Shown: positions 1,704 through 33,590 of the stretch, one piece after another
How positions within the stretch are numbered: position 1 is the first letter of the stretch
Layout: each line of letters starts with the position of its first letter
From: a virus
Virus record (IMG/VR): IMGVR_UViG_3300042938_000498
Span: 1 to 33,590 of that record
Length of the DNA: 33,590 nucleotides
Reading direction: 5' to 3' (one strand)
The notes under the pieces: model-generated
What the model saw: the letters and a program-made list of their open reading frames with translations, nothing else
Told to the model about the DNA's origin: nothing
Database searches by the model: none
Position numbers and translations under genes: made by a program

Positions 1704-1737
1704 TGAAACAAAAACAGGGTTTTATTGTTATAGTATT
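1704..1737 (+). promoter_or_regulatory. Late promoter A (TGAAACAA-N12-ATTGTTAT)
   Basis: TGAAACAA (1704-1711), 12 bases, then ATTGTTATAGTATT ending right at the ATG of the head protease gene. The same arrangement occurs at 4528, 27828 and 24975. Measured as TGAAAC-N17-GTTAT it resembles an ECF sigma promoter. If the G of GTTAT is about -11, transcription starts at the ATG and the message is leaderless. The role is inferred from repetition and position. Confidence 0.65.
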
Positions 1738-2310
1738 ATGAGTAAAAAAGTTTTTGAATTAGTATTGGATGAAGAACAGGATGGAGTCTTTGCAATTAGT
1801 TTAGTAAACCAACCTGCTATACAAGAAAATTGGATCGCATTATCAAAAGAGCATAAGATTGAATTTAAAGAAATTGAATCTAAAAAGAATATATTATTAG
1901 GTGCAGTTCTTATTCCGGATATGAAAATAGACAGAATGGGAGAAGACGGAGAAGTATACCAGGTATTTTTTAGTGGTGATACAATCCAAAAAACTGCACA
2001 TAAATTTATGAAAAACGGTTATCAATCGGAATCGACCTTACAACACAAGTCTAAAGTTGAAGGCGTAACAGTTGTTGAAACGTGGCTTAAAGAGGATATG
2101 GTAAATGATAAAAGTGTAATGTATGGATTTGATTATCCTATTAATACTTGGATGGTTGCTATATCAATTGACAATCCGGATATAAAAGATAAAGTTAAAT
2201 CTGGAGAAATCAAAGGATTTTCAATCGAAGGATTTTTTAACGAAAAATTAGAAATGTCTGAAGATGAATTATTGTATAACAAAATAAAAGATTTAATCAA
2301 TGGAGTTTAA
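1738..2310 (+). CDS. Prohead serine protease, XkdF-like
   Basis: A 190-residue protein resembling the XkdF family of putative phage head-maturation serine proteases. The N-terminus has the family's SLVNQPAI stretch, the core has GAVLIPD (55-61), and the candidate catalytic residues are His103 in LQHK and Ser162 in GFSIEGFF. Such proteases cleave scaffold and capsid precursors inside the prohead. The next gene is a scaffold candidate overlapping by 11 nt, followed by the capsid gene, which fits a maturation cassette. The ATG abuts the late promoter and is the only sensible start. I cannot tell whether it is catalytically active. Confidence 0.8.
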   Translation: MSKKVFELVLDEEQDGVFAISLVNQPAIQENWIALSKEHKIEFKEIESKKNILLGAVLIPDMKIDRMGEDGEVYQVFFSGDTIQKTAHKFMKNGYQSESTLQHKSKVEGVTVVETWLKEDMVNDKSVMYGFDYPINTWMVAISIDNPDIKDKVKSGEIKGFSIEGFFNEKLEMSEDELLYNKIKDLINGV

Positions 2311-4498: not shown

Positions 4499-4528
4499 AC
4501 CCCTATTTTATTATAGGGGTTTTTTTTT
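4499..4528 (+). terminator. Rho-independent terminator before late promoter B
   Basis: ACCCCTAT (4499-4506) pairs with ATAGGGGT (4513-4520) around six bases, followed by nine T. The T-run ends in the first base of late promoter B, so one unit is insulated from the next without any spare DNA. Confidence 0.9.
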
Positions 4529-4561
4529 GAAACAATATAGGGTAAAAATTGTTATTATATT
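4528..4561 (+). promoter_or_regulatory. Late promoter B (TGAAACAA-N12-ATTGTTAT)
   Basis: TGAAACAA (4528-4535), 12 bases, then ATTGTTATTATATT directly before the ATG at 4562. The downstream box is identical to that of copy C at 27848. It should drive the portal, connector, fibre and lysis genes as one long unit ending at the hairpin at 11654. Confidence 0.7.
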
Positions 4562-4891
4562 ATGATTAAACTATTACAATCTACATATGCTCAACAAGTA
4601 TCTTTTATTCCTCGTAATATGGAAGCATATTCCATTACGTTAAGAAATGAAAGCACACAAGTAGAAACTGTAATACTACCATCTTTTTTTAGTAATGAAT
4701 ATTATTTAACTGCAACTACTGTATTCACTTTAGTTGAAAATCATTTTTATAATTTTACGGTTAAAGATATATCCGGTAATATAATATATTTAGATAAAAT
4801 TTTCTGCACTAATCAAACTGCAGATGATTATACAATTAATAATGGAGCATATGTAAACGCTGCTGCATCTGATACAATTTTTTATGAGTAG
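4562..4891 (+). CDS. Small virion-associated protein, unknown
   Basis: A 109-residue, probably all-beta protein. It has SITLRNESTQ (24-33), then LVENHFYNFTVKD and IFCTNQTADDYTINNGAY near the C-terminus. I recognise this as a recurrent type next to portal genes in Bacteroidota phages but know no function. It is the first gene after late promoter B and overlaps the portal gene by 8 nt, which argues for a virion or assembly role. No signal peptide or membrane segment is seen. Confidence 0.6.
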   Translation: MIKLLQSTYAQQVSFIPRNMEAYSITLRNESTQVETVILPSFFSNEYYLTATTVFTLVENHFYNFTVKDISGNIIYLDKIFCTNQTADDYTINNGAYVNAAASDTIFYE

Positions 4892-11653: not shown

Positions 11654-11702
11654 TATACCCCCCCTAAAAAACATACTTTAAAAATAGGGGTATACCCTTT
11701 TT
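11654..11702 (+). terminator. C-tract/G-tract hairpin terminator, module copy 2
   Basis: TATA, seven C and TA pair with TA, four G and TATA around an A-rich loop, followed by CCCTTTTT. It begins on the base after the spanin stop and ends the fibre-lysis unit. Like copy 1 it contains GGGTATACCC. Confidence 0.75.
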
Positions 11703-11751: not shown

Positions 11752-11765
11752 TAGGAATTTTCCTA
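11752..11765. repeat. Interrupted palindrome, operator candidate
   Basis: TAGGAA-TT-TTCCTA lies just upstream of the early nuclease gene and overlaps the start of the 40-bp repeat. Copy 3 has only a decayed version. A repressor site is possible. Confidence 0.3.
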
Positions 11766-11800
11766 TTGTTAATAAATATGTTATTTTGTATTTGGATTTA
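11761..11800 (+). repeat. 40-bp upstream repeat, copy 1
   Basis: This stretch is identical base for base to 24508-24547. In both places it precedes a TAnnTTT box and an ATG in the same order. It begins TCCTATTG and ends GGATTTA. An exact 40-bp match outside genes suggests a shared control sequence. Confidence 0.8.
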
Positions 11801-21744: not shown

Positions 21745-22596
21745 ATGAAAACAGTAAATAGTATATCAGGAGGACAAACATCAGCTTATATAGCTGCAAA
21801 TTATCCAGCAGATTATAATATTTTTGCATTGGTAACAACGGATGATATTAAATGTCAATATCCTGATGCAAAGGTAAGGCAAATTGTAAGTGATAGAATT
21901 GGAAAAGAATTTATAGGAACTCTTGAAGATGATATAATTATACAAACAATTTTAGAATTAGAACAATTTATAGGTTCAAAAATTGATTGGGTTGTTGGAA
22001 AATCATTTGATGAAATTATATTAAGAAAAAATGGCACTACATTTTTACCATCATATATGCGAAGGTTTTGTACATCAGAAATGAAACTTGAACCAATATT
22101 TAGATTTTGGCAAGAAAATATAGGTGAGCCTTGTGAAACAAGAATTGGTTATCGTGCTAATGAAATGAATAGAGCAAAGTCAATGATAAAAAAACTAAAT
22201 AAAAATGGTTTAAGCGAATTTAAAGCAGTAATAGGTAAATCAGAAAATGGAAATAATAAATGGAAAACAATTGAATGGCAAAAACCAGTATTTCCATTAA
22301 TAGATAATAATATATATAAAGATACTATTGTAAATTATTGGAAAGATAAACCGGTAAATTTTGCTTGGATGAATAATTGTGTTGGATGTATGCATAAAGA
22401 ACCAGCACTGCTAAATAAAATGGCAAAATTACATCCTAATAAATTAGAATGGTTTGCAAAAGTTGAAAGAGAAAGTACAAATGGATGCACTTGGAGAGAA
22501 TTTCAAACATATGATAAAATCATAAATTATGAATTTAACAATGAATTATTGCTTGAAGATTTTAATGAGTGCGATAGTGGTTATTGTGGATTGTAA
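21745..22596 (+). CDS. PAPS reductase-like PP-loop enzyme
   Basis: A 283-residue protein of the phosphoadenosine phosphosulfate reductase/PP-loop group. It has ISGGQTSAY (7-15) as the ATP-binding PP-loop, RRFCTSEMKLEP (106-117) as the CysH-like substrate motif, and later cysteine clusters NCVGCMHK (Cys212, Cys215) and CDSGYCGL (Cys276, Cys281), possibly an iron-sulfur or zinc site. Such enzymes handle sulfur or nucleotide chemistry, and some relatives (DndC) take part in DNA sulfur modification. No other Dnd-type gene is seen, so the substrate is unknown. It has its own promoter. Confidence 0.75.
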   Translation: MKTVNSISGGQTSAYIAANYPADYNIFALVTTDDIKCQYPDAKVRQIVSDRIGKEFIGTLEDDIIIQTILELEQFIGSKIDWVVGKSFDEIILRKNGTTFLPSYMRRFCTSEMKLEPIFRFWQENIGEPCETRIGYRANEMNRAKSMIKKLNKNGLSEFKAVIGKSENGNNKWKTIEWQKPVFPLIDNNIYKDTIVNYWKDKPVNFAWMNNCVGCMHKEPALLNKMAKLHPNKLEWFAKVERESTNGCTWREFQTYDKIINYEFNNELLLEDFNECDSGYCGL

Positions 22597-24366: not shown

Positions 24367-24373
24367 CAATTCC

Positions 24374-24416
24374 TATACCCCCCCCCTAAAAAAAGATTTT
24401 GAAATAGGGGGGGGGT
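24374..24416 (+). terminator. C-tract/G-tract hairpin, module copy 3
   Basis: TATA, nine C and TA, then TA and nine G: the C and G runs are equal here and pair perfectly around an A/T-rich loop. Unlike copies 1 and 2 the stem is followed by CAAAAAA, not by a T-run, so its efficiency as a simple terminator is doubtful. Confidence 0.6.
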
Positions 24417-24440
24417 CAAAAAAGCATAATTTTATATATA

Positions 24441-24507: not shown

Positions 24508-24547
24508 TCCTATTGTTAATAAATATGTTATTTTGTATTTGGATTTA
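24508..24547 (+). repeat. 40-bp upstream repeat, copy 2
   Basis: Identical to 11761-11800. Both copies end 15-16 bases before an ATG and follow an A/T-rich module tail. Confidence 0.8.
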
Positions 24548-24562: not shown

Positions 24563-24994
24563 ATGGATGAGATATATAAAAAACATAAATACTGGATTGG
24601 GTTAGCCTATTCATTTGGTATTACAGATTTTCCGGAGGATGCGGTCCAGGATGCCTATCTAAAAATATATGGTAAAGAAAACATAAATGAATCCTATTTC
24701 TATTTTACCCTGCATTCAATCTGTATGAATATGCATAACAAAAGGAAATTAGAAACGATACCTTTTTATGACAACCTGGATGCTGAAGATATTATTCCTT
24801 CATCTCCTACAGATATAACAGATGTATTATTTACTCTAGATAATTGGACTTGGGATGAAAAGCTATTCTATTTGAAATATATCGAGGAGGAATTATCCCT
24901 TCGTAAATTTGCTTTAAAATATCACTACAATTATAATTGGGTTTATAGAACACTCAAAGAACTCAAAGAACGTTTGAAACAAATTAAGGATTAA
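24563..24994 (+). CDS. ECF-like RNA polymerase sigma factor
   Basis: A 143-residue protein with the two domains of a minimal sigma factor. Region 2 is about residues 5-62, with FPEDAVQDAYLKIYGK matching the region 2.1-2.2 helix that binds core polymerase. Region 4 is about 108-142, with LSLRKFALKYHYNYNWVYRT as a helix-turn-helix. An acidic linker joins them. It probably redirects host polymerase to the late promoters. Promoter D overlaps its last codons. The ATG was preferred over a TTG ten codons upstream in the shared promoter repeat. Divergence from bacterial ECF proteins leaves some doubt. Confidence 0.7.
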   Translation: MDEIYKKHKYWIGLAYSFGITDFPEDAVQDAYLKIYGKENINESYFYFTLHSICMNMHNKRKLETIPFYDNLDAEDIIPSSPTDITDVLFTLDNWTWDEKLFYLKYIEEELSLRKFALKYHYNYNWVYRTLKELKERLKQIKD

Positions 24995-25006
24995 ATTGTT
25001 ATAATA
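24975..25006 (+). promoter_or_regulatory. Late promoter D (TGAAACAA-N12-ATTGTTAT)
   Basis: TGAAACAA (24975-24982), 12 bases, ATTGTTATAATA. It begins inside the last codons of the sigma gene and drives the packaging genes. It differs from copies A-C in having 15 extra bases before the ATG at 25024, so a leader of about 15 bases is expected. Confidence 0.65.
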
Positions 25007-25023
25007 AAAAACATTTATATATT

Positions 25024-25230
25024 ATGAAAAAAGAAAATCAAGAAATAATCAACGATCATTTCAATAATAAAAAGGAATTGACTTTAGGGCAAAAAATAAT
25101 TTTAACTGAAGTGTACAAAGAAGAAGTAGGAGGATTAGTAGATGCAAATGATAACGACTCACAATGGAGAAGTTATACAGATACACTATCTACATTTGTA
25201 GAAACACCAAAAGCAAAAGCAAAGGAGTAA
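25024..25230 (+). CDS. 68-residue protein, unknown
   Basis: An acidic helical protein (MKKENQEIINDHFNNKKEL, later VDANDNDSQWRSYTDTLSTF) ending in a Lys/Ala tail. It is the first gene after late promoter D, before the terminase candidates. A role in packaging or assembly is possible but unproven. Confidence 0.55.
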   Translation: MKKENQEIINDHFNNKKELTLGQKIILTEVYKEEVGGLVDANDNDSQWRSYTDTLSTFVETPKAKAKE

Positions 25231-25537: not shown

Positions 25538-25713
25538 TACAAATTTCAAGACCAGTATACGATAGGATAGTTTCAGATGCAAAAGGATTAGATTGTAAGC
25601 CAAATATAATTACGGTTCATCCAAGAATTTATAAAAAACTTTGTAAAGAAATGAAGCACAAAGTTAGAATAGTTTACGGAATGACATTGACTAATTTTTA
25701 TGTTAAATCTTAA
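25534..25713 (+). CDS. 59-residue protein, unknown
   Basis: A basic protein (MIQISRPVYDRIVSDAKG, then HPRIYKKLCKEMKHKVRIVY). It overlaps the small-terminase candidate by four bases and the large subunit by 14. Its place suggests a packaging-related role; no motif. Confidence 0.55.
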   Translation: MIQISRPVYDRIVSDAKGLDCKPNIITVHPRIYKKLCKEMKHKVRIVYGMTLTNFYVKS

Positions 25714-26911
25714 TTCTAAATACCTACCCCTTTATGAGAATGATACAAGATATTTTATAGTTACGGGCGGAAGGGGTAGTGGTAAATCATTCGAGGTCGG
25801 TGCTATGGCATCGGCTTTGTCATTTCAATCAGGTCATAAGATATTATTTACAAGGCAGACAATGACATCTGCACACCTATCAATTATTCCCGAGTTCCAG
25901 GAGAAGATAGATTTGATGGAAGCAAATGATTTATTCGAAGTCAATAAAGGTGAAATAAGGAATAAAAAATCAGGAACGGATATAATCTTCAAAGGAATTA
26001 AAACAAGCTCCGGAGATCAAACTGCAAATCTTAAATCATTGCAAGGAGTTACAACCTGGATATTAGATGAAGCGGAGGAGTTAGTTGATGAGGATATTTT
26101 TGATAAGATTAATTTATCCATCAGGCAGAAGGGAGTACATAATAGAATAGTACTTATATTAAATCCTGCCACTAAAGAGCATTGGATTTATAAAAGGTTT
26201 TTTGAAAGCGAAGGAATATCCGAAGGCTTTAACGGAACAAAAGGAAATGTAACTTATATACATACAACCTACCAGGACAATATAGAGAACCTGGATCAAT
26301 CATTTATAAATGAGATTGAGAAGATAAGAGAATTAAATCCTAAAAAATATAAGCACGTTATTTTAGGTGTATGGTTGGACAAAGCAGAAGGAGTAGTATT
26401 TACTAATTGGAGATTTGGAGAGTTTAATCCTGATAATTTACAGACATCATTTGGGCAGGATTATGGATTTAGCATTGATCCGACTACATTAGTTGAAGTG
26501 GCAATAGATAAGAGTAAAAAGATTATCTATGTAAAGGAGCATTTATACAAGCCAAAATTAACCACAAGTGAAATAGTATTCTATAATAAAAACATTGCAA
26601 GAGAAAGCTTAATAATAGCTGATAGTGCAGAGCCAAGACTTATAGCGGAGATGGCAGCAAATGGATGTAATATAATAGCGACTGCAAAAGGACCAGGCAG
26701 CATAACTGCAGGATTAGCATTGATGCAAGATTATACAATTATCGTTGATGAGGCAAGTAGCAATATAGCGAAGGAACTAAACAATTATGTTTACTCTGAT
26801 AAGAAGTCAGGATTGGTTATTGATAATTGGAATCACGCTATTGATGCAATCCGGTATAATATCTTTTTTAATTTAAGCAATCCCGAGAGGGGCAAATACC
26901 ACATCTACTAA
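25700..26911 (+). CDS. terL: Terminase large subunit
   Basis: A 403-residue packaging motor of the Terminase_3 type. Walker A is GGRGSGKS (23-30), Walker B is ILDEAEE (Asp123, Glu124), and LNPATKEHW (154-162) is the coupling region. The nuclease domain has three acidic residues in GQDYGFSID (Asp254), IIADSAEPR (Asp308) and NHAIDAIRY (Asp382). It cuts and pumps DNA into the prohead through the portal. The length is usual for the family. It overlaps the previous gene by 14 nt and the next starts on its stop (TAATG). Confidence 0.95.
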   Translation: MLNLNSKYLPLYENDTRYFIVTGGRGSGKSFEVGAMASALSFQSGHKILFTRQTMTSAHLSIIPEFQEKIDLMEANDLFEVNKGEIRNKKSGTDIIFKGIKTSSGDQTANLKSLQGVTTWILDEAEELVDEDIFDKINLSIRQKGVHNRIVLILNPATKEHWIYKRFFESEGISEGFNGTKGNVTYIHTTYQDNIENLDQSFINEIEKIRELNPKKYKHVILGVWLDKAEGVVFTNWRFGEFNPDNLQTSFGQDYGFSIDPTTLVEVAIDKSKKIIYVKEHLYKPKLTTSEIVFYNKNIARESLIIADSAEPRLIAEMAANGCNIIATAKGPGSITAGLALMQDYTIIVDEASSNIAKELNNYVYSDKKSGLVIDNWNHAIDAIRYNIFFNLSNPERGKYHIY

Positions 26912-27827: not shown

Positions 27828-27861
27828 TGAAACAAATTTTTATTAAAATTGTTATTATATT
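27828..27861 (+). promoter_or_regulatory. Late promoter C (TGAAACAA-N12-ATTGTTAT)
   Basis: TGAAACAA (27828-27835), 12 bases, ATTGTTATTATATT, then the ATG of the tail chaperone gene. It should drive all tail genes through the tape measure to the hairpin at 1571. Confidence 0.7.
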
Positions 27862-28524
27862 ATGAAGTTAGAAATCACAATCCCGACTAAATTAAATGAG
27901 ATTAAATTATCTCAATACCAGGCATTTTTAAAGATTGCAAAAGACAATGAAGATTCCGAGTTCCTTCACCAAAAGATGGTACAGATATTTTGTGGAATAG
28001 ATTTAAAAGATATTGCAAATATTAAATACAAAGATGTAAACGATATAACTGCTTCACTTGGTGATATGTTTAATCAGGAGCATAAGTTGATTCAACGATT
28101 TAAATTAGGTGGTACTGAATTTGGATTCATTCCAAATCTTGAGGATATGACCTTTGGAGAGTATACCGATTTAGATACTTATATAACTGATTGGGATATG
28201 ATGCACCGGGCAATGGCAGTATTATATAGACCGATTAAAAAGAATGGCTTAAATGGCACGTATGATATTGAAGATTATAATGGAACAGTAACTTATGGCG
28301 ATGTAATGAAACACGCTCCTTTAGATGTTTGTTTAGGTGCTACGGTTTTTTTTTATCGTTTAGGGAACGCATTACTGAACGCTACGATTGTTTATTTGGA
28401 GAAGGATCCGGAGGTGCAGAATATTCTGCTACAGGGCAATTTGGGCAAAGATGGGGATGGTATAGTTCAATCTATGCTATTGCTCAAGGAGACCTTACGA
28501 GATTTGACGAAGTTACAAGATTAA
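27862..28524 (+). CDS. Tail assembly chaperone, short (gpG-like) form
   Basis: A 220-residue protein starting MKLEITIPTKLNEIKLSQYQ and ending in the 56-residue zero-frame extension with LGNALLNATIVYLEK and DGDGIVQSMLLLKETL. In siphoviruses two chaperones from one start, with and without a -1 frameshift, coat the tape measure during tail assembly. The position at the head of the tail unit fits. This is the unshifted product; the shifted one is listed separately. The zero-frame tail also looks like conserved protein, so the overlap codes in two frames. Confidence 0.75.
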   Translation: MKLEITIPTKLNEIKLSQYQAFLKIAKDNEDSEFLHQKMVQIFCGIDLKDIANIKYKDVNDITASLGDMFNQEHKLIQRFKLGGTEFGFIPNLEDMTFGEYTDLDTYITDWDMMHRAMAVLYRPIKKNGLNGTYDIEDYNGTVTYGDVMKHAPLDVCLGATVFFYRLGNALLNATIVYLEKDPEVQNILLQGNLGKDGDGIVQSMLLLKETLRDLTKLQD

Positions 28525-33032: not shown

Positions 33033-33590
33033 AAGTTATTGAAGTAAAAATAAAATCAAATATTGATGGTGCTACTACAAGCGTTTCTAAATTCAAAGCA
33101 GGATTAAAAGACGCTACAACACAATCAAAAGAATTAGGGTCTACTTTAGAAGGTTCTAAACAATCTGAATTTATAAATACTTTAGCTAATGGAGTTGGTA
33201 AATTGAATCCAGCTTTTGGAACTGCTATACAAGGTGCTAACGGATTGCTTTTAAAAATGTGGCAGTTAGTTGCTAATCCTGTTGGTGCTATTCTTGCCGG
33301 TATTGTAGTAACTGTAAAATTTTTATATGAAGCATTCCAAAGTTCAATTGCAGGTGGTAAAGAATTAAAAGCAATATTTGCTGCAGTTAGTACAGTAGGA
33401 GAACAAGTAAAAGACGCAATGTTTGGATTAGGTAGAGCTTTAATAAATGTAACTACTGCTGCTTATAAATTTATAACTTTAGATTTTAAAGGTGCTGCTG
33501 AAAGTATGAAAGAAGCTAATAGAGAAGCTACTAATTCATATAAACAATTAGGAAATGCAGTAGATGGAACAACTGCTAAAATAGTTTACA
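33020..33590 (+). CDS. Tail tape measure protein, N-terminal part
   Basis: Starts MAEVKVIEVKIKSNIDGATT and runs off the window end; joined with 1-1566 it is 628 residues. A hydrophobic stretch LAGIVVTVKFLYEAF (about 92-106) is the usual membrane-like segment of tape measure proteins. From 33341 the sequence repeats the window start. The start is the only ATG giving the TxxxSKFKAGL pattern common at tape measure N-termini. Confidence 0.8.
   Translation, partial: MAEVKVIEVKIKSNIDGATTSVSKFKAGLKDATTQSKELGSTLEGSKQSEFINTLANGVGKLNPAFGTAIQGANGLLLKMWQLVANPVGAILAGIVVTVKFLYEAFQSSIAGGKELKAIFAAVSTVGEQVKDAMFGLGRALINVTTAAYKFITLDFKGAAESMKEANREATNSYKQLGNAVDGTTAKIVY
33341..33590. repeat. Genome-end overlap, right copy
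   Basis: Matches 1-250 except at six bases. The differences change Val to Ile, Gly to Asn (ATTGGA against ATAAAT) and one silent position. Both versions keep the frame. Confidence 0.9.

Follow-up and report, generated by a model that had tools for sequence, protein, structure and literature searches.

A phage-encoded ECF-like sigma factor as the probable late-gene switch in a family of Bacteroidota phages

The 33,590-base viral record analysed here in full (hereafter the window) very probably encodes a minimal ECF-type sigma factor that is made early from a host-read promoter and directs the host core polymerase to four late promoters, a reading reached without expression, binding or transcription data. 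A phage ECF sigma acting as the late switch had been proposed in a preliminary description of this DNA, and the proposal is supported, as far as sequence goes, by the predicted fold of the protein, by the ECF profile of its family and by covariation between the protein and the promoters. The features discussed below are collected in Table 1.

Table 1 Coordinates of the genes and putative promoters of the window
Feature	Position	Strand	Evidence or remarks
ECF-like sigma factor gene, 143 aa, ATG start	24563..24994	+	ORF, family profiles, predicted fold
Large terminase subunit	25700..26911	+	Homology; sigma-family gene upstream of its homologue in >100 loci
Virion-module gene, phrog_32199	27862..28524	+	Orthologues bear the promoter across most of the sigma family
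Small gene directly 3' of the sigma gene	25024..25230	+	First gene after late promoter 24975
Head protease-like gene	1738-2310		Abuts late promoter 1704
Gene preceding the portal gene	4562-4891		Abuts late promoter 4528; portal gene next
Putative late promoter	24975..25006	+	Overlaps 3' end of sigma gene; before 25024 and terminase
Putative late promoter	27828..27859	+	Abuts ATG of 27862-28524; orthologous site used in family covariation test
Putative late promoter	1704..1735	+	Abuts ATG of head protease-like gene 1738-2310
Putative late promoter	4528..4559	+	Abuts ATG of 4562-4891, then portal gene
Candidate host sigmaA-type promoter block	24509..24544	+	Before sigma gene; TTG-N18-TGTATTTG; identical to early-operon block
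Second exact copy of the 36-bp block	11762..11797	+	Before first gene of early operon

The phage and its genome

The last 250 bases of the window (33341-33590) repeat the first 250 (1-250) at 97.6% identity, so the window is probably a complete genome of ~33.3 kb, circular or circularly permuted; despite this repeat, the record is classed as lacking end repeats. Its terminase shares 63% identity with the one encoded by the Nonlabens phages P12024L and P12024S, which puts the phage among the flavobacterial siphophages. A related phage contig (PBGL02000003.1) lies inside a genome labelled Euryarchaeota, a bin that is probably mixed because the relatives with known hosts infect Bacteroidota. Another terminase, 51% identical, is found in a 549-kb contig of Sphingobacterium sp. 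(NZ_JAPPVJ010000003.1) and probably belongs to a prophage; no member of the sigma family was found in a 13-kb stretch of this contig.

Three hairpin-like sequences made of a C run and a G run (CCCCCCC..GGGG; 1567-1620, 11654-11700 and 24367-24420) each lie at a transcription-unit boundary and are likely terminators; a short run of T follows two of the three. The early block includes a phosphoadenosine phosphosulfate reductase-like gene (phrog_424, 21745-22596) near genes for a DNA methyltransferase and two helicases.

A minimal sigma factor predicted from fold and family

The AlphaFold2 model of the protein consists of two confident helical domains and a poorly defined linker (mean pLDDT 89, pTM 0.46); with a pTM of only 0.46, the relative arrangement of the domains is not predicted. 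In this model, sigma2 spans about residues 1-62, the linker about 63-85 (~24 residues) and sigma4 from about 83 or 86 to 143, with recognition helices at 43-61 in sigma2 and 124-142 in sigma4. The leading Foldseek matches of the model are ECF sigmas (probability 1.0); superposed separately on such structures, sigma2 (1-63) and sigma4 (83-143) both fit at about 2 A. Sigma factors also make up most of the leading named matches in a search of viral structures, the P12024S protein being among the matches. The preliminary description had read regions 2 and 4 of a minimal sigma in this protein and named a lack of structural similarity to sigma2/sigma4 as what would refute it; the predicted fold contains both halves. 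As far as can be judged from sequence, the other condition named there, late promoters active without the protein, is not fulfilled either.

When the window protein was used alone as the query, neither Pfam nor the PDB yielded a sigma match, and family alignments were needed. By itself, the protein scores 17.2 bits against TIGR02937 (cut-off 42.9), and its only direct PHROG match is to phrog_36, 'transcriptional regulator', through the C-terminal helix-turn-helix alone (E=0.0098). We gathered relatives of the sigma from viral contigs and aligned 55 representatives to obtain a family profile, the best PDB matches of which are ECF sigmas (SigW, 2.6e-7). TIGR02937 (sigma70-ECF) is matched by 54 of the 55 members, phrog_1740 ('RNA polymerase sigma factor') by 44 and Pfam Sigma70_r2 by 32. 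W11 and Y32 are invariant in the alignment, and D26, V28 and R114 nearly so. In more than 100 loci a gene of the family is located a short distance 5' of the gene for the large terminase subunit, and the syntenic gene of the isolate P12024L exceeds the Pfam Sigma70_r2 cut-off. A tblastn search of the phage collection with the window protein gave no match; when three other family members were used, only one (L145) gave matches, namely the P12024 phages.

ECF sigmas are characterised by the presence of sigma2 and sigma4 only, joined by a linker of fewer than 50 residues, by promoters with AAC in the -35 and CGT in the -10 element, and by a co-transcribed anti-sigma factor (PMC8103513). The domain criterion is met, with helices confined to residues 2-61 and 86-142, and membership in the superfamily by sequence is met at the level of the family, the window protein alone falling below the curated cut-off. 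The promoter criterion is met as well (-35 GAAAC and -10 TGTT in the window, CGTT being the commonest form in the family), the promoters being assigned to the window sigma by covariation and not by experiment. No match to an anti-sigma factor was obtained among the ORFs neighbouring the sigma gene. In many relatives (e.g., L032:1359 and L064:4546) the next gene after the sigma gene is small and conserved (GLGDTVEKITKATGIKK..CGCDERKEKLN); it is present in 155 loci or genomes but has no match in the window or its close relatives. In the window, the ORF 25024-25230 fills the same place. The conserved small gene is a possible partner of the sigma.

Putative late promoters of the window

The bipartite motif TGAAACAA-N12-ATTGTTATnATA, which can also be written TGAAAC-N14-ATTGTTATnATA, occurs in four copies on the + strand, each with at most one mismatch, and all four precede virion genes, namely the head protease-like gene, the gene before the portal gene, the terminase operon and gene 27862. 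In dinucleotide shuffles, 0.18 sites are expected at up to three mismatches, and none of 100 shuffles reaches four sites. When the regions 5' of genes were searched de novo and without bias for spaced word pairs, this motif ranked first, with weaker results in shifted-region controls. The hexamer TGAAAC by itself is uninformative because it occurs 23 times on the + strand; the information resides in the paired element with its exact spacing. All four motifs lie outside the early block, which is weak evidence when taken alone (p=0.14). The TGAAAC promoter that had been noted at the end of the sigma gene is one of the four bipartite copies, and the suggestion that the late promoters carry ECF boxes holds in that the elements are of the ECF type.

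The -10 element is so near the ATG, in three of the four promoters of the window as well as in most members of the family, that transcription would be expected to start at the start codon or within a few bases of it. In phiEco32-like phages, transcription starts 6-9 bases downstream of the promoter element (PMC8948821); the same offset would put the start at or beside the ATG in these three window promoters. The late mRNAs may accordingly be leaderless or nearly so, an inference from spacing alone; leaderless mRNAs are rare in such hosts, making up 5.5% in F. psychrophilum (PMC9723704).

A candidate host-type promoter before the sigma gene

The 36-bp block CCTATTGTTAATAAATATGTTATTTTGTATTTGGAT occurs exactly twice in the window; one copy precedes the sigma gene (24509), the other the first gene of the early operon (11762). 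In the related genomes G001 and G003 the early-gene copies read TATATTTG, as does the sigma-gene copy of G003, and this reading fits TAHHTTTG, the -7 element of flavobacterial sigmaA (PMC6847099). The host-type promoter that the preliminary description placed in front of the sigma gene is partly supported by a block shared with the early operon; its identity as a sigmaA promoter is not shown, and the block, which resembles such promoters, remains a candidate. A scan for TTTG-N-TAnnTTTG with one mismatch did not outperform its reverse-strand control, returning 13 matches on the + strand and 37 on the - strand; a consensus by itself is therefore not enough to call host promoters.

No late-type motif lies directly upstream of the sigma gene, the only nearby copy being that at its 3' end, which serves the downstream genes. 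If read-through around a circular genome is left aside, there is no sign that the sigma gene is autoregulated; positive autoregulation is a frequent ECF trait that is not needed for fold or function (PMC8103513).

Promoters across the phage family

De novo searches recovered ECF-type motifs in many related genomes, differing between genomes and own to each. P12024L, for instance, has six copies of AAAACAA..CGTTAAT, all on the + strand and none on the - strand, one of them shortly after the sigma gene. No convincing motif emerged from the de novo search in several genomes (e.g., G009, G013, G016, G018, G029 and G035), and an approach through orthologous promoters revealed ECF-type sites in most of the genomes in which that search had failed. 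The test site was the promoter before the orthologue of gene 27862, which most members of the family carry. In 29 of 43 non-redundant loci, NGTT[AT] stands exactly 12 bases ahead of the ATG, and it is nearly absent from other positions; ACA[AG] was counted 28 times at -30 and 6 times at -29. The spacing between late promoter and start codon is fixed. P12024L and its closest relatives have no promoter at this orthologous site; they were kept as noise in a first covariation scan and dropped from a second.

Covariation between the sigma and its promoters

The second mutual-information scan covered 138 sigma columns in a cleaned set of 37 non-redundant phages, and the first -10 base was left unscored when promoter sites were chosen. 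This base picks residue 59 in both scans, with z=10.5 in the first (next column 4.2) and z=10.0 in the second (next column 4.5). Arginine at this position goes with C, asparagine with T and lysine mostly with A; the exceptions are lysine with C in four and with G in one of 14 lineages, and arginine with A in two of 20. In an alignment made by eye, residue 59 falls on the conserved arginine of the ECF 'D-x-x-R' motif, and the pairing of arginine with a C:G pair and of asparagine with a T:A pair would fit known side-chain preferences. The -35 base before ACA picks residue 128 in the sigma4 helix (z=7.2 in the first scan, followed by residues 120, 124 and 123), which is again on top in the second scan (z=5.6), with the linker residue 71 close (5.1). 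In the first scan, -10 base 6 paired with residue 31, outside the recognition helix, at z=12; this signal may reflect shared ancestry, in which case the scan is not free of it. On the terminase tree, in a set of 12 phylogenetically independent pairs differing in R59, the promoter base changed in the same direction in 7.2 and in the opposite direction in 0.1, and stayed unchanged in 4.7 (median p=0.016). An earlier covariation code for cellular ECFs provides a precedent (Todor et al. 2020, as described in PMC8103513).

A near-isogenic pair offers a natural swap of the recognition helix. The sigmas of L009 and L010 are nearly identical to that of the window save for residues 43-63, the region 2.4 helix; between L003, which is of the window type (type A), and L009 (type B), identity is 99% outside this tract and 33% inside, and their DNA shows 0-4 differences per 21 bases outside the tract versus 11, 11 and 8 inside. 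In both readable promoters of L009/L010, TGAAAC is retained and the spacer is almost unchanged, with CGTTTA as the -10 in place of the window-type TGTTAT. L008 is an exception to the pattern, combining a window-type (type A) helix with type B CGTTTA promoters; with its sigma gene starting only 88 bases away from an end of the contig, it may be an assembly join or a recent recombinant. In the absence of any experiment, covariation links the sigma protein strongly to these promoters.

Proposed late switch and alternatives

The sigma would be made early, from the host-read promoter that it appears to have in common with the early operon, and would bind host core RNA polymerase, as inferred from its fold and family. 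It would then direct the polymerase to the four sites TGAAAC-N16-TGTTATnATA; the sites are observed and their use is inferred. The first -10 base would be read by region 2.4, chiefly through residue 59, and the -35 element by the helix of region 4.2; covariation supports both assignments. Behind these promoters lie the terminase, head, portal and other virion genes. The likely order is host sigmaA, phage sigma, virion genes.

The protein could instead be a late activator that works with a host sigma without being one, as in the ArpU/Xpf/RinA class of phage late regulators. These are encoded near the terminase, as is the window gene, and the sole PHROG match of the window protein, to the helix-turn-helix of a transcriptional regulator, would suit such a role. 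However, a complete sigma2 domain is conserved throughout the family, the -10 element covaries with region 2.4, and the -10 itself (TGTT/CGTT) differs from the host sigmaA element, which leaves this alternative improbable. We give still less credence to a host ECF sigma reading the late promoters while the phage protein has another role: flavobacteria do own more than one ECF sigma, and a CGT-type -10 motif occurs in them (PMC9723704), but the promoter bases track residues of the phage sigma both family-wide and in the near-isogenic pair, and every phage genome has its own motif. That the gene encodes the small terminase subunit, as its position upstream of the large subunit and a weak match of one of the 55 family members to a small-terminase PHROG might suggest, can practically be set aside given a fold and profile that are those of a sigma and the presence of other small ORFs between this gene and the terminase.

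With the phage sigma as the preferred reading, the family may further be a natural library of orthogonal sigma-promoter pairs, in which the region 2.4 helix is swapped by recombination, the -10 elements of the regulon are realigned and the late mRNAs are leaderless; we advance this wider view tentatively, our doubts slightly outweighing the support. Each small genome displays a dedicated sigma together with its compact regulon, which yields many independent sigma-promoter pairs, one of them near-isogenic and differing mainly in the -10-reading helix, which makes the ECF recognition code directly testable. In Bacteroidota phages the system would also represent a simple switch to late genes, and Bacteroidota genetics could draw on it for candidate orthogonal promoters.

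Comparison with known systems

Cellular ECF sigmas (SigW, RpoE, SigH and the Bacteroidota GFO_1088/PG0214 family) likewise consist of sigma2 and sigma4 only and recognise AAC/CGT-type boxes through regions 2.4 and 4.2. The window sigma differs from them in having no identified anti-sigma and no promoter of its own type before its gene, and in a regulon of virion genes.

Among phages, the phiEco32 sigma phi32_gp36 likewise transcribes middle and late genes with the host core polymerase (PMC8948821, PMC4331800). It has no detectable or usable sequence relation to the window sigma family, and the phiEco32 promoters, unlike the bipartite ones of the window, have a single element because gp36 lacks homology to region 4 (PMC8948821). 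Salmonella phage 7-11, with its sigma SaPh711_gp47 and late promoters, belongs to an unrelated phage group with hosts in another phylum, and the available text of PMC8948821 describes neither family-wide covariation nor a geometry in which promoters abut start codons. Gene 35 of the Nonlabens phage P12024L (AFM54755) and its P12024S counterpart (Inhavirus) belong to the same family as the window sigma and occupy the same place before the terminase. The depositors annotated gene 35 as containing Sigma-70 region 2; its product is 21% identical to the window protein, and its -35 and -10 elements are different. The literature searched, from which subscription journals were mostly absent, contains no description of the P12024L/P12024S regulon or of the regulon of the sigma family.

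The principle of a phage late sigma is already known, being established for phiEco32 and 7-11 (PMC8948821, PMC4331800), and the family is already labelled as a sigma factor in PHROGs. What appears to be new is the reading of the regulon across a whole lineage, the promoters that abut start codons, and a natural helix swap with matched changes in the -10 elements.
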